Shown: piece after piece, positions 21,601 to 46,045 of the stretch
How positions within the stretch are numbered: the stretch's first letter is position 1
How the letters are laid out: each line of letters starts with the position of its first letter
Program-made: the position numbers and the translations under genes
The notes under the pieces: model-generated
Database searches by the model: none
Seen by the model: the letters and a program-made list of their open reading frames with translations, nothing else
What the model was told of the DNA's origin: nothing
Assembly (NCBI RefSeq): GCF_040954835.1
Contig: NC_090712.1
Coordinates: 8,441,284 to 8,505,283 of the forward strand
Direction of reading: 5' to 3'
From: Lepisosteus oculatus
Lineage: Eukaryota > Chordata > Actinopteri > Semionotiformes > Lepisosteidae
Length of the DNA: 64,000 bases

Positions 21601-24600
21601 GTGTGATGGATACTGATGTGAAATATAAAAAGCATGCATACTGTACATTGACTCTGTTCTGTCCCTGTATACAGTATGCTATGTGCTGTATATTTGAATT
21701 ACTGCACGGTATCTTACAGATGTATAGAAGCAGTTTTATTCCTGAGCTTTAACCTACAAAATCAATTACTAAAAGATCACATGTAAAATGTTATTTTAAT
21801 TCAGTTTATGTTCAAATTAACCTAAACAGGTGCAAAAATCAATGGCAAATAAAGGTCATATAGCAGAGATGTAATAGAACATGGTTTAAATGAATGAACA
21901 AGCCATCGCTAAATTGTCCAATTAAACATAGATAGAGGTTAAAAGATTTGCGCCTCCTTTGCCACCTTAATTCCTCACAAAAGATATATTATCTTATTAA
22001 GAACTCAATCGTAAAATGCCACAGAATGACTGACCTCTGTTTGCACATGGATTCTCCCTTTGTTGTGGTAACATCAAAACCTATTACAATAAATTAATCA
22101 CACTTGCACCAATGCTGGACAGTCATTTTGTATTGTTCTTCTCCACCGATCTTTAAATGAAATATTCCTCTAACAAAGGAATTATTAACTCATATGCTTC
22201 AAACACATTTCATAATTACATTTCCACCTGGGGAAATTTTACCACATGTATTCTATTAACATCCTTCTGGATGGGATAGGGGTTTAGGTCACGCACAGGC
22301 AGGAACAGTACAGACACATCCCCAGGGCTGGATGTTATTAGTTCATTATTTCTGATCAGTCAAAGCTTGGGCAGATGATACAAGCTTCCAAACCACGTAA
22401 CTCCAACAAATGAGTCTAATCAGGAAAACAAAGATTAACCACTATGTAGCAGGTTTTGTTCTAGTTACAAATGGCAGTCAGAACTGCTTGTTCAGTCAAA
22501 CAGCGACTACAGTACAGCATTGACTGCAGAGTAATAGTACATTTCTGTCAGTGTTCATCTTTAACAAACCCATGCCAAATGATCCTGCATACGAATATGT
22601 AGAAAATAAATAAAATGGAAATTTAAAACAGACTAATCACGTGCCATGTTTTAATTTAAAGCGCTAAAATACAACATTCAAGATTATAATAAAATTGTTT
22701 ATACTGGTGCACAGAATTATTGCATCACTCAGATGCAAAATATTGAATTAAATACATTAACCATACAGTAGCTCTCAAATCAAATCCCACAAAATATGGA
22801 CAAAGAACTGTTATGATTTTTTATAAAAAATGTGAGACACGGGCAAAATGAAAAACCTTAAAAACATAGTATCGAGTATGTTCTCCCTCAACATTAACAC
22901 AATCCAGGCAGCACTAATCCTGAAGTCTGATCATTAAAAACATTGTTGTCCTTTTTCTGCATTTAGCCTATCTTTAGTTTAGCAGCATTGTGGATTTAAG
23001 TTTTAGCCAATCACTTTATAAAGCAGACCAGAGTTTGGTCACGTAACTGTCTCGGATGTCAGTTAGAGACCTGTACAACTCTTTGTAAATGTGTTTCAAG
23101 TTTCTGTCAGATATTTAATAATGGTATAATAGTCCTGGACCTGTGTAATGTCCCTCTGATTTCAGGACATTGTCTTAGAGTTTCCGATTTCATGGGATAC
23201 GTTTGCTGATTGCTGAAGCAGTGATACAGTATCACGTTAATCACATAGACAGCTGTCTTCATTACTCCAGCAGGACATGGTGGTATCTTTCTTGTGTTCT
23301 TGTGTTTACTTAAATCTCTGAAATTTCTGATTAGTTATTTATACAGAGTTTTAATCAGCTCATTTCAGGAATGTTAAGTCTTCGAAAAATCAAACAAAAC
23401 TGGCTCAAGTTCTGCACTTGCATAACAATGCGAGGTGCTTAATCTTGTTATCCTAAGAAAAAAAATTGATTCAATCAACTACCGCATCGTCTCAGTATTT
23501 ACAATGCAAATTGCACTATGATGATGTGGCTAATGAGATTTTGAAGTAAAACGCAGACCATCGTGTTTTTGCTGTGCTTCAGTAGGTCCCTGTTCTAACC
23601 GCCAGTTTTCCCCGAAGCCAGTTAACCTACTAGTATGTCTTTGGACTGTGAGGGGGAACCAAGGCACAAACCCACACAAACATGCTTTGTTCTTTTTACA
23701 TTTTGCACTATGTGTTTACTTTAAAGCGGGGACAAAAGAAAAAGAGGCTATTCTTGAAAGTTTGTGAATTCTGTATAGAAAAAAAAAACACTGCGTTATT
23801 ATTCTTGCTCAATAAAGGATTATTGTCTTGGGATCAGTACAACTACTGTTATGATAAATGATCAACATGATTTTCTAAAAGTCTGCATCAAACGCTTCTG
23901 TTGTCTAAATCTCATGGATCAACTGCATCATTCTCATAATAATAATTATAATAATAATAATAAAGCATTCACCCTCTTTCAAAGAGCATCTGCTTCTGTT
24001 GTCTAAATCTCATGGATCAACTGCATCATTCTCATAATAATAATAATAATAATAATAAAGCATTCACCCTCTTTCAAAGAGCATCCTAATAGGCATTCTA
24101 ACAAGACAGTTATTTAAGTGCTACAATATTTAAGGTGCATTTAAATATAGTTTTCTTACCATTAGGTTTCCACCATTAACACAATGCACATTGAAAAGTT
24201 GAATTAAAATGTTTTTTTTTAATCCAAGGCTGCAGCTTTTCAGGTTTATTGCTTATGGGACTTTTCACTGTTGACACTGCTATAATCATAGATATTTAGA
24301 TGTCAAATAAACTGCCAAATGCTTGCTTGGCAGCAGAATTTTTATGATTGATGAAGAAATACTTATCCTGCTCTAGGCAAGAAGAAATCAAGATTGAAAT
24401 ATGACTGAAAAAAGTGGCAGCTGACTGAGCACTACACTGAACAACACAACAAGTGAAACATGACACTCGCCAAAACTTGGGAACAGTTCACACTGTCTGT
24501 GCGGACTGTTTCCATCATAACTGCAGAAACATCCAACAAAGAAACACTGCCAGTACTCAGTTGGTGAAATGAGATCTTTACATTGGACTGAGAAACAAGT

Positions 24601-33600: not shown

Positions 33601-36600
33601 AAAAACACCGAAGGGACAATAAACTGAAGGGGAAAAAATATCTACAAGGGACCGGGTTTGTTTTATAGCAAAGCAAAACAAAACCCTCATTAAAAAAAAA
33701 CAATTGTCCTGGGAATTAAAGAAGAAAAATCATACTGGTTTGATCCTGAGCTGGCCATCCACAACTTCTAGCAGTCCATGATTTCTCGATACTCTTTTAT
33801 CACTGACCTGAAAGAACAGAACAGAAGGTCTGAGTCAGATTCATGCTGTTAGTAACAATTGACAAATTCCACCCAGCAAGATCAAAACGATGCACAAAGC
33901 ACAAAAAAAGAACGGATGCAATCAGTAATGATTGTTATAAATTACAAGGACTGGTAAAGTAACACTATTAAATCCAATGAGGTTCAAGACTCAAAAAACA
34001 AATGTTTAGACAAACTGCTGCAATAAACCTTCATGAGAAAGTTCGATATTGGAAGAGCTCAATATTCTTTTCAATTAAGAAGACATAATATCACGGTAAT
34101 TACTGAGTCTATTACTCTTGTTCAATGTTTGCAAACTTCTTGATTACTACAAATATAATATTGTAATATGTGCTTAATCATTTTCAACAATTTTAGGTAA
34201 TAGCCATCAGAACCACAAAATGAAATTATAAAAAATATTGTTTGCACATGACAAAGCTGTAGCTGATATGAGCTGCTTTCAGTTTTCTCAGTGACAAAAA
34301 TAAGAGGTCATTTATATTCATAACATCTAATCTAAAACCCTGATAGGTAGACTTCAAAGATCCTGTTGTCTGAAGCATAAGACTATACAAATTGTCTTTG
34401 CAAACTTCTAAGCAGTATTTTCAATATTCCACACCAGAAGGCACCACAGCCGAAATGGTTGTGTTTCCTTTCTTCTCTTTTCAGCACTGAATAAACTTTT
34501 ACTTGTTCCTTTGTAGGCTACGCATGCTGACGCAGCTACCTACTTGTATTTTCAATATAATACATTTCCATGAAGCACAAATCATAGAAATCAATAAGAG
34601 ATAAAACCCTACTGTAACCAGACTCAGCATGCACAGTCATCAGAACAGCTTTTGGGTCCTGTTTTTTTTTTCTAGAATAATACAGTAGAGACACAAGCAC
34701 TGTGGTGCTGGCCTGAATATGTTTCTCATCCATCAGTGAAACCATCTTTGTTGATTTCCAATGCCATTTTATTTGTGTGATGAGAGAAATAATATAAGTG
34801 TGAGTACTAATAATAAGGGTTTTGGTGAAACAAAATCTTGTTCCTATTAATTTGACAGAAGCAGGTCTGTCTAACTCGCTCCTTGTTTGGGCAGATGTCC
34901 CAAAAGCAAGACATATCCACTCTGCAAAAGCCCAGTTGCCTCAGCACTTGGAAGAAAAATGCAACATATTAAAAGATCAGAATAAGATTTCCACAATTCT
35001 GTTTGGAGTCACTATGACCTTCCTTTAACATAGATACACATGTGCTTTTATCACACTCTCTAAAGACTCCATCTTATTTGTGAGCCACATGAATGGAATG
35101 TCTTCAAAGCATAAGCCCTTACGGTCCTGATCAAATTATGCAGATCACCGTCACCTACTGTACAATGCTGCATTAACCACACCAAGACAGAAGGCATTGC
35201 TGTTCACATCTGTTGTGCAATGGAAAGCTATAGCAATGTTCTCACCACACTCTTTTTTATACTACTTTCATCTAGTCCCTCCATATGGTTGCATTTCTAA
35301 CTAATCAACAAACTCTCTCATTACAGTCTGACCGAACACATCAATCGCATGAACCTGTGGACAACTCTCACCTTTTATGTTACTAATTTTTCCTGATGAC
35401 AACCCATAATCTGGCCACAGTTTCTAAAAATGCATAGATGACCGCTGTATATGTAATTTCTCTTCTGCTGTCATCCAGAGAAAACTTTTCCATCCTGATT
35501 TGTTCATGGGACTTTTGTTCATAACACCTGGTCAAGTCCTAATCTTTAAATCTCTTAGAACATCTTTTGCTCCTGACTATTATTTACCTTAATCCAGTTT
35601 GCTCAGTATCACACTTACCCTGCAATAAATTCACTACTTCTCGACTATTATTAATTGCTCTTTTCCTATCATTACTCTGGCAGCTCCTTCTCCTATTTCC
35701 TTCAGGAAATGCAGTAGAAATCTCAAAGAGCTCCCTGAACAACACCATTAATTTGACAGCTCTAGCAGTACTTAACCTGCATGACAAAAAAAAACACTTG
35801 CCCATTACTTACTACTGTATATAAGATGAACAACCTGAAGATGAATAGAAGCACATTATATGGGAGTGCAAGATGTACAAAATCCATCTTCAAAAAGACC
35901 AACATAGCTTCCTTCTAGTCATGATGAACCTCCATATTGATGCTTTGAATATCGATCAGGAATCTGCGTGTTTTAGGAACTTTCAGGACCACTATTGCAA
36001 TGGATATGTAAGGCTTATGAACAAAGAAACAAGATTAAGATCCTTCACAATCTGGCTAAAAATAATTAACAAAAGCAGCTAAGAAACCTAAAAATCACAG
36101 TCACATTAAACAACATTTATTTCCCCAGCGGACACCCATATCATGGGTGACGAAGATTGGTATACAAGCAATATAAGCACATCGGGTTGCATTTTATGGC
36201 TAAATTATTTGTTTTTTTGCAAAGTTCTCATCAGACATGATCACAACATACAGTATGACTGACACTGAATCTCGAGCATATAAACAACATGTACTTCAGT
36301 AAAGGGGTTCTCTGCCTATACTGCATATAGATATAAAAACAGCACAGCATGATTAGAATATTTTGCTTTCTTGTCATTGAAAACTAAACTCATGCTGGTC
36401 TGATATCATTTGTGTGACTGCTCATGCATCACTAAATACATGCTACAGATTCAGAAATTTTAGGGGAAAATATTTATAAAAAACAGCCCTTCGGGACTAG
36501 CACTGCTGGAAACAACCATGAGTATTTGCTTCTAATCAAATCCTGAACAAAATATTACGTTCCTCTGCTTTGGTTTTAGTTCAGGGTGAATTATTTTGTA

Positions 36601-45186: not shown

Positions 45187-45275
45187 TCACACCAGAAGAA
45201 GGCTCCACAGCCGAAATATTGTGTTTATTTTCTTCTCTTTTCAGCCTGGAATAAACCTTTACTTGTTCATTGTAG
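45187..45275 (+). repeat. copy 2 of the 'ccgaaac...acttgttcc' repeat family
   Basis: Reads 'cacaccagaagaaggctcca', 'cagccgaaatattgtgttta', 'ttttcagcctggaataaacc', 'tttacttgttc'. Same orientation and content as the right arm of the palindromic copy 440 bp further on. Confidence 0.85.
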
Positions 45276-45554
45276 AAAAGGTTTGTGAAAATTCAATAGA
45301 ATTGTGGGAATTACCATTTCTTACCATGATGTCTTGCTTCATCTAACCTGGTCTTTAAAACCAAATGGGTTTATATTTACTAATTCAATGATTTTTGAGA
45401 CACAATGGTCTATGAAGCCAAAAAAGCATTAAATCACAAAGATTTTTTAAGAGAAGCCTGGAGGAGTTTTTTTCTGTTGATCTTTTTGTTAATTAAATAA
45501 TTGAAGTATGTGTTATGTCTTTGTGTTATACATATATATATATTATGATATATA

Positions 45555-45800
45555 GTTCAGGTGGGTAGCTGCGTCAGCATGCGTAGGCTGCAAAGGAACA
45601 AGTAATAGGTTTATTCCATGCTGAAAAAAAGAAGAAAGAGAACACAACGTTTCGGCCGTGGAGCCTTCTTCAGGTGTGAGAGAAATTTTGGAAGCAGAGC
45701 TGGCCCTGTCTCTCTCACACCTGAAGAAGGCTCCACGTCCGAAACGTTGTGTTCTCTTTCTTCTTTTTTTCAGCATGGAATAAACCTATTACTTGTTCCT
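45555..45800. mobile_element. palindromic insertion with 14-bp target duplication, Penelope-like (tentative)
   Basis: Two 89-bp arms, 45595-45683 and 45711-45799, are inverted copies with one visible mismatch, around a 27-bp centre. The whole block is flanked by a perfect direct repeat tattatgatatata (45541-45554 and 45801-45814), so it moved as one unit. Each arm carries CTGAAGA and CGAAAC around a short GGC/GCC stem, reminiscent of a hammerhead ribozyme core. Such cores, and inverted terminal copies, are known from Penelope-like retroelements. No cleavage site with a matching stem I is visible, so activity is not implied. Confidence 0.5.
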
Positions 45801-46045
45801 TATTATGATATATATATACTTAATCAGGATACTTTCTTAATTTATAAAGACTTTCATGAAGATCTAATTAAGTTTTAGATCTAAAATATGCACAGATATG
45901 GACAAACCTACAGGGTTCACAAACCTTTTCTTACATTATACCAATACTAGTATATGTTCAGATCTGAAAATGAGCCGTTTTGAAGAGCGTTGTTTTGCTT
46001 TCAGGACAGCCATTCTGTCATTCCTAGAGGCGAGAACTTCAAACT

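Follow-up and report, generated by a model that had tools for sequence, protein, structure and literature searches.

The closest described systems are two Penelope-like elements (PLEs), PAc of Anolis carolinensis from the Penelope/Poseidon clade (PMC11167929) and the Penelope families of the rotifer Adineta vaga (PMC3846280). According to the sections of these papers drawn on here, PAc combines an RT with a GIY-YIG domain, has a pLTR and carries a hammerhead motif where its reading frame begins. The purified protein cuts and extends both strands of AT-rich targets, and reverse transcription begins at two adjacent internal sites, which define a 'tail' of 30–40 nt that is present in a fraction of copies (PMC11167929). 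In the same sections, the later steps of PLE insertion are described as 'yet to be validated'. The corresponding sections on A. vaga report inverted pLTRs, arranged head to head around few, mostly long elements, with an optional 31-bp tail on one of the two; some copies have target duplications of 8–10 bp, and the pLTR contains an Inr-like motif (PMC3846280). We use the term tail as in these two papers.

Here, we describe a short palindrome from Lepisosteus oculatus that is well explained as an insertion of this known kind of element, and whose relatives provide statistics bearing on a mechanism that is not yet settled in print. Its family resembles PAc in the RT and GIY-YIG domains, the pLTR, the hammerhead motif at the frame start, the tail with its two presumed adjacent RT start sites, and the AT-rich targets with apparently both strands cut and extended. 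It shares with A. vaga the head-to-head pLTRs with a tail on one, short target duplications and an Inr-like motif in the pLTR. In contrast to the PAc study, our data are read from genomic insertions, which are mostly stubs and bear one tail per palindrome. The difference from A. vaga lies in the stub-only palindromes, the mostly 13–14-bp duplications and the very high copy number. With thousands of sharp-edged ends from a single family, one can count which ends are used, how arms pair, how long the duplications are, and which centres and template switches occur; shared centres permit a direct test of palindromes being copied as units, and the many stubs make the poorly understood insertion of PLEs unusually easy to study.

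The window, by which we mean the whole stretch of 64,000 nucleotides that was analysed (NC_090712.1, positions 8,441,284 to 8,505,283), had been interpreted in a sequence-only reading as containing two inverted arms of 89 bp with one visible mismatch, flanked by a perfect 14-bp duplication. A repeat search and inspection of the letters bore out the near-perfect inversion, the single mismatch and the duplication, inside which the palindrome (45555–45801) sits. The arms turned out to be of unequal length. They have 91 nt in common (45593–45683 against 45711–45801, 99% complementary), and the left arm, at 129 nt, is longer by an outer tail (Table 1). This tail is presumed to be the stretch between two RT start sites. 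The right arm begins nearer the centre, with GCCCTGTC. Both arms contain a CTGAAGA...GAAAC core, with GTCC in the right arm where the left has GGCC. The palindrome is not unique, and many similar insertions with other target duplications are found elsewhere in the genome. A match to MIR529 on both strands (E ~7e-10, 46.7 bits, gathering score 75) was rejected as an effect of the long hairpin.

Table 1. Parts of the palindrome, and two related older stubs, in window coordinates.
Feature	Position	Strand	Remarks
Target-site duplication, left copy	45541..45554		TATTATGATATATA; letters and repeat search
Target-site duplication, right copy	45801..45814		first base common to the end of the right arm
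Left arm, PLE pLTR/5' region	45555..45683	-	reference positions 172–300 of L043:601–1099
Tail, outer 38 nt of left arm	45555..45592	-	without counterpart in the right arm
Minimal hammerhead-type sequence, left arm	45642..45677	-	ACAC-CUGAAGA-A-GGC..GCC-GAAACGUU^GUGU; letters read; a putative ribozyme
Centre, 19 nt, linking the 5' ends of the arms	45684..45702		pair comparison
Right arm, untailed	45703..45801	+	reference positions 164–262
Minimal hammerhead-type sequence, right arm	45717..45752	+	stem II weakened to GGC/UCC; cut predicted between 45748 and 45749
Older stub, same PLE family, untailed, 84%	45187..45271	+	alignment to reference; preceded by a short inverted tail-like piece, by eye
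Older stub, same PLE family, tailed, 84%	34436..34546	+	alignment to reference

To place the arms within an element, loci were taken out of the 1.2-Gb genome for comparison (labelled L with a number), and reference positions (ref) follow the numbering of L043:601–1099. With the 246-bp unit as query, the best 40 of 196 candidates gave 85 matches; the 28 similar loci inspected comprised palindromes and single arms with varied flanks. At L022, the two arms enclose a 423-bp antisense fragment whose frame holds RT motifs, including KPADKGGAVVV, which we take to be a PLE-type RT motif. This fragment, used as query in turn, gave 41 matches from the best 40 of 500 candidates, nearly all of them at 98%. 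The tandem copy L043 contains the end of a reading frame with GIY-YIG (E=3.7e-4, 21.2 bits, just under the cutoff of 22.6), then the arm region, then a second frame with a divergent RT that stays open for 952 aa, to the end of the stretch. The RVT_1 match in L043 (E=2.4e-5, 24.6 bits) lies below the cutoff of 29.6, and the values in the related copies tested (2.4e-5 and 5.2e-6) were both under the gathering score. Residues 2–36 of the L043 reading frame are matched at 100% by the left arm of the window. Because the arm region opens this frame after the end of the preceding GIY-YIG frame, the arm corresponds to the pLTR, the region where the transcription unit begins. The arms are thus the pLTR/5' region of a PLE family that has, in the same genome, a GIY-YIG domain and a divergent RT, which bears out the Penelope-like identity proposed earlier, and the window palindrome is a stub insertion of an endonuclease-bearing PLE, whose class and anatomy are already known. 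A MITE-like DNA transposon was rejected in view of the single arms, the RT sequence between the L022 arms and the ORF-bearing relatives. At L042:1–3400, the PLE coding region is itself present as a large inverted copy, head to head, with its centre near 1500.

The family is abundant. An exact 28-mer of the arm occurs 10,512 times in the genome (5,286 + 5,226; reversed control 0) and an exact RT 28-mer 176 times (control 0); the resulting ratio of ~60 is rough, as the two words differ in conservation. Among the first 100 RT places listed, 21 fall within the first 21.5 Mb of contig C14, where the listing ends, a possible sign that ORF-bearing copies are concentrated there. The head-to-head arrangement noted in the sequence-only reading recurs in the family. 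Among 100 arm places listed on contig C1, all 10 neighbouring pairs within 300 bp have this order ('-+'), and a junction pattern allowing up to 30 bp for the centre has 943 places (control 0), each counted on both strands because the pattern reads the same in reverse complement. For a longer subfamily, a stricter pattern has 18 places (control 0), 16 of which were new to the comparison and were added to it. Overall, the pLTRs are in tandem at L043 and inverted in 75 pairs. The 100 listed places, minus 8 members of one tandem array, served as an unselected sample; 82 regions were left after array removal and 80 were used. Duplicates were dropped before counting (L040, the same place as L022; L061, which has the flanks of L060; L116, in the array of L115). 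The array itself (C1:6500620–6566322; L115, L116) has ten of the listed 28-mer places, all in the same orientation and mostly ~6.44 kb apart; it consists of tandem repeats of a larger unit, each with one stub.

The 3' ends of the arms fall into two discrete classes. In one unselected stretch, 89 arms at 79 loci comprised 47 untailed ends (ref 256–268) and 42 tailed ends (ref 295–315), with none between. Within palindromes, the two classes are paired: 73 of 75 pairs have one tailed and one untailed arm, the other two are unclassifiable and none speaks against the pattern. In the unselected sample alone, 29 of 31 pairs are mixed (P ~2e-9 for 29 mixed pairs under independent choice). The larger count combines 67 pairs in which both arms reach ref 235, a set that leaves out L080, L103 and any pair in which one arm is very short, with 8 extra pairs from the junction-pattern list, chosen partly for recurring centres and all mixed (8/8). 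For the 67 pairs, classing by BLAST ends yielded 61 mixed pairs and 1 untailed twice, with 5 more cut off where the piece ends. Closer inspection raised the mixed count to 65 of 67: L104, L118 and L119 were cut by the piece end yet reach ref 276–278 and were counted as mixed, the apparently doubly untailed L142 is mixed by eye and in a separate end listing, and L073 and L124 were left unclassed. Among open-licence papers, we found no claim that exactly one arm always bears the tail, and our count sharpens the published description of an 'optional' tail. The predicted fold of the tail region was no better than those of shuffled sequences.

The duplication around the window palindrome has counterparts at other targets, as the sequence-only reading had asked. 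Exact duplications of 9–17 bp, most often 13–14 bp, flank 49 of the 58 pairs with enough flanking sequence, and the remaining 9 have none of 9 bp; only 1 of 1,143 shuffled flanks reached that length. Single arms were considered where they lie wholly within the piece, begin at ref 140 or later and have no partner. Eight of these 27 have a duplication of at least 8 bp (shuffled flanks, 5 of 526), and among the 19 without one, some have short inverted pieces upstream by eye. The target sites look AT-rich. A comparison of targets on the tailed and untailed sides gave nothing convincing, with one position mildly uneven. At L005:1498–1827, a palindrome is accompanied by a further single arm and the target word TCTATCTATACTT occurs three times, as if one target had been hit twice in succession.

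The 5' ends are clustered as well. In the unselected sample, 46 of the 74 arms not running off the piece start at ref 175–181, with the mode at ref 178 (15 of 74), which is the A of TC|ACACC. The 8 single arms that have a duplication all begin at ref 177–179. The initiator consensus is YYANWYY, which TC|ACACC fits. Judged by the insertion ends and this consensus, the cluster would be the transcription start. Loci found by likeness to the window copy start most often at ref 164, the position of GCCCTGTC, so starts differ among subfamilies. Many palindromic arms are truncated further inward, at points that vary among pairs. A cap origin for an extra G before GCCC was considered and is doubtful, since CTACGGCCC occurs in longer context too (L016, L021). 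At L039:287–365 and L101:4–97, pieces of the PLE frame (ref ~330–423) adjoin the 5' end of an arm in the same orientation; the L039 join lies within a common TCTCTCAC, as expected from template switching.

The observed PLE kinship, head-to-head order, duplications, two 3' classes, one-tail pattern and clustered 5' ends are, in our judgement, probably the outcome of a process in which each cut end primes a cDNA of its own and the two cDNAs are joined head to head into a stub with a tailed and an untailed arm. Like the transcription start proposed above, the use of two RNAs and the order of steps are inferred, as follows. The PLE protein would cut AT-rich DNA with a stagger of 13–14 nt, as deduced from the target duplications, leaving two 3' ends. 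Both ends would prime reverse transcription of PLE RNA away from the RNA 3' end, using one or other of two sites that lie ~38 nt from each other, close to the 5' end of the transcription unit. The cDNAs would each extend to or near the RNA 5' end, that is, to TC|ACACC or, in the subfamily of the window copy, to GCCCTGTC, and the two cDNA ends would be joined into a palindrome with one arm tailed and the other untailed. Some palindromes may afterwards be copied as a unit. The anatomy agrees with what PAc does in vitro. That both ends prime within one event, at different sites, and that the cDNAs run off at the RNA 5' end before being joined, would go beyond the published assay. In the sections of PMC11167929 drawn on here, no difference in RT start between the strands was seen, so that assay leaves the one-tail pattern unexplained.

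A stricter version of this two-cDNA model assigns fixed roles to the two cut ends, and we regard it as a possibility that is rather doubtful at present. One end would always use the distal site and the other the proximal site, on two RNAs, with both cDNAs running to the 5' end. Stubs would then be the default product because priming takes place near the mRNA 5' end, longer copies would come from tandem or read-through RNA, and palindromes could seed palindromes. If true, the tail is no optional feature and instead marks one particular cut end of the two.

Alternatively, a palindrome could be transcribed through and reinserted as an inverted dimer, perhaps as a secondary pathway of the PLE, which corresponds to the short mobile family proposed at the outset. 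Recurring centres are what this would produce. L049 and L050 have an identical 22-nt centre, a shuffle of element pieces, with differing target duplications and tails on opposite sides, and such a complex centre hardly arose twice independently. L144 and L145, at different targets, likewise have in common a centre with a 6-nt insert and have their tails on opposite sides relative to it. Two simpler joins recur among the 67 pairs (L003/L036 and L005/L006), others are shared by L146/L147 and L148/L149, and the junction-pattern list contains further recurring centres. However, 64 of the 67 pairs were counted as having a centre of their own (64 distinct centres, three of them recurring); the simple joins are explicable by end-joining at the usual 5' ends, and L049 is only 1.2 Mb from L050 on C1, where gene conversion between neighbours may have acted. 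An identical complex centre at two targets indicates that copying as a unit, or conversion, seems to occur beside new formation. As the main route, unit copying is unlikely, and together with the varied truncations, the single arms with duplications and the ORF-bearing copies, the individual centres speak against a separate short family; what stands of that proposal is that palindromes may at times be copied whole.

Self-priming, in which one cDNA folds back and is copied into an inverted repeat, has been put forward for rotifer PLEs with an antisense template, in the sections of PMC3846280 drawn on here. The near-identical arms and short centres would fit it, as would the variants common to both arms: 13 common variants occur in both arms of a pair (shuffle mean 3.6, maximum 11 in 1,000 shuffles) and 33 in one arm, which leans towards one template or like templates. 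Rare variants behave differently, with 78 in a single arm and none in both. Against self-priming, the second arm ends in the untailed class instead of copying the tail and then the flank, and the arms differ at ref 199 in both palindromes where both arms cover it, the window copy included. There, the window mismatch is G/T at a non-CpG site, and T is probably a source variant, judging by 8 T, 1 A and 1 C among 191 aligned arms with a base at this position, a set that may hold double alignments. With two cases only, the difference weakly favours two RNAs. We therefore hold self-priming to be improbable, somewhat more so than unit copying. Least credible of all is that hammerhead self-cleavage sets the insertion ends, with RNAs cut at GUU^GUGU as templates. 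The hammerhead parts are present in the arms, and one arm of L023 begins exactly at the predicted cut (ref 210), but none of the 74 unselected arms starts at ref 210 and only 2 at 209–211. Furthermore, in the PAc sections drawn on here, ribozyme mutants left insertion in vitro unchanged, cleavage depended on protein and reads ending at the cut were absent (PMC11167929). The insertion ends do not favour the cut, any role of the hammerhead-like sequence in making insertions of the window type would be conjecture, and the joining of two separately primed cDNAs is the reading we prefer.

The hammerhead-like sequence itself has more of the expected parts than had been noticed. Core parts had been recognised in each arm, correctly, and a cut site with stem I was said not to be findable; both are present, as GUU^GUGU and the 4-bp ACAC/GUGU, within ACAC-CUGAAGA-A-GGC/GCC-GAAA-CGUU^GUGU. 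Across 156 arms, stem I (ACAC/GTGT) is found in 138, the core CTGAAGA-A-GAAA in 122, stem II (GGC/GCC) in 119 and ACGTT in 118. Among the commonest stem combinations of these arms there was no two-sided compensatory change, predicted folds lacked a hammerhead, and the fold of the hammerhead region was no better than those of shuffles. The Rfam hammerhead search proposed earlier gave no match at the gathering score in the window, and none with E up to 10 in window 45400–45950 or L043 740–920. Stem III would consist of AC/GU without a loop and could therefore form only between two copies. Minimal PLE hammerheads were reportedly described by Cervera and de la Pena in 2014, and are said by Lunse et al. 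(in 2017) to 'cleave RNA as dimers'. The hammerheads of PLEs usually lack helix III, according to the part of a review drawn on here (PMC6155905), and the present sequence is alike in being minimal and without helix III. Most likely it represents the ordinary minimal ribozyme of PLEs, its stem III being so short that one molecule alone could not form it. Stem II of L043 also contains an ATG, which the majority base of the paired arms turns into ACG; the start codon of the PLE is uncertain for this reason.

Elsewhere in the window, at 23894–24085, there is a tandem duplication of 98 bp that has an ATA run and 96% matches.
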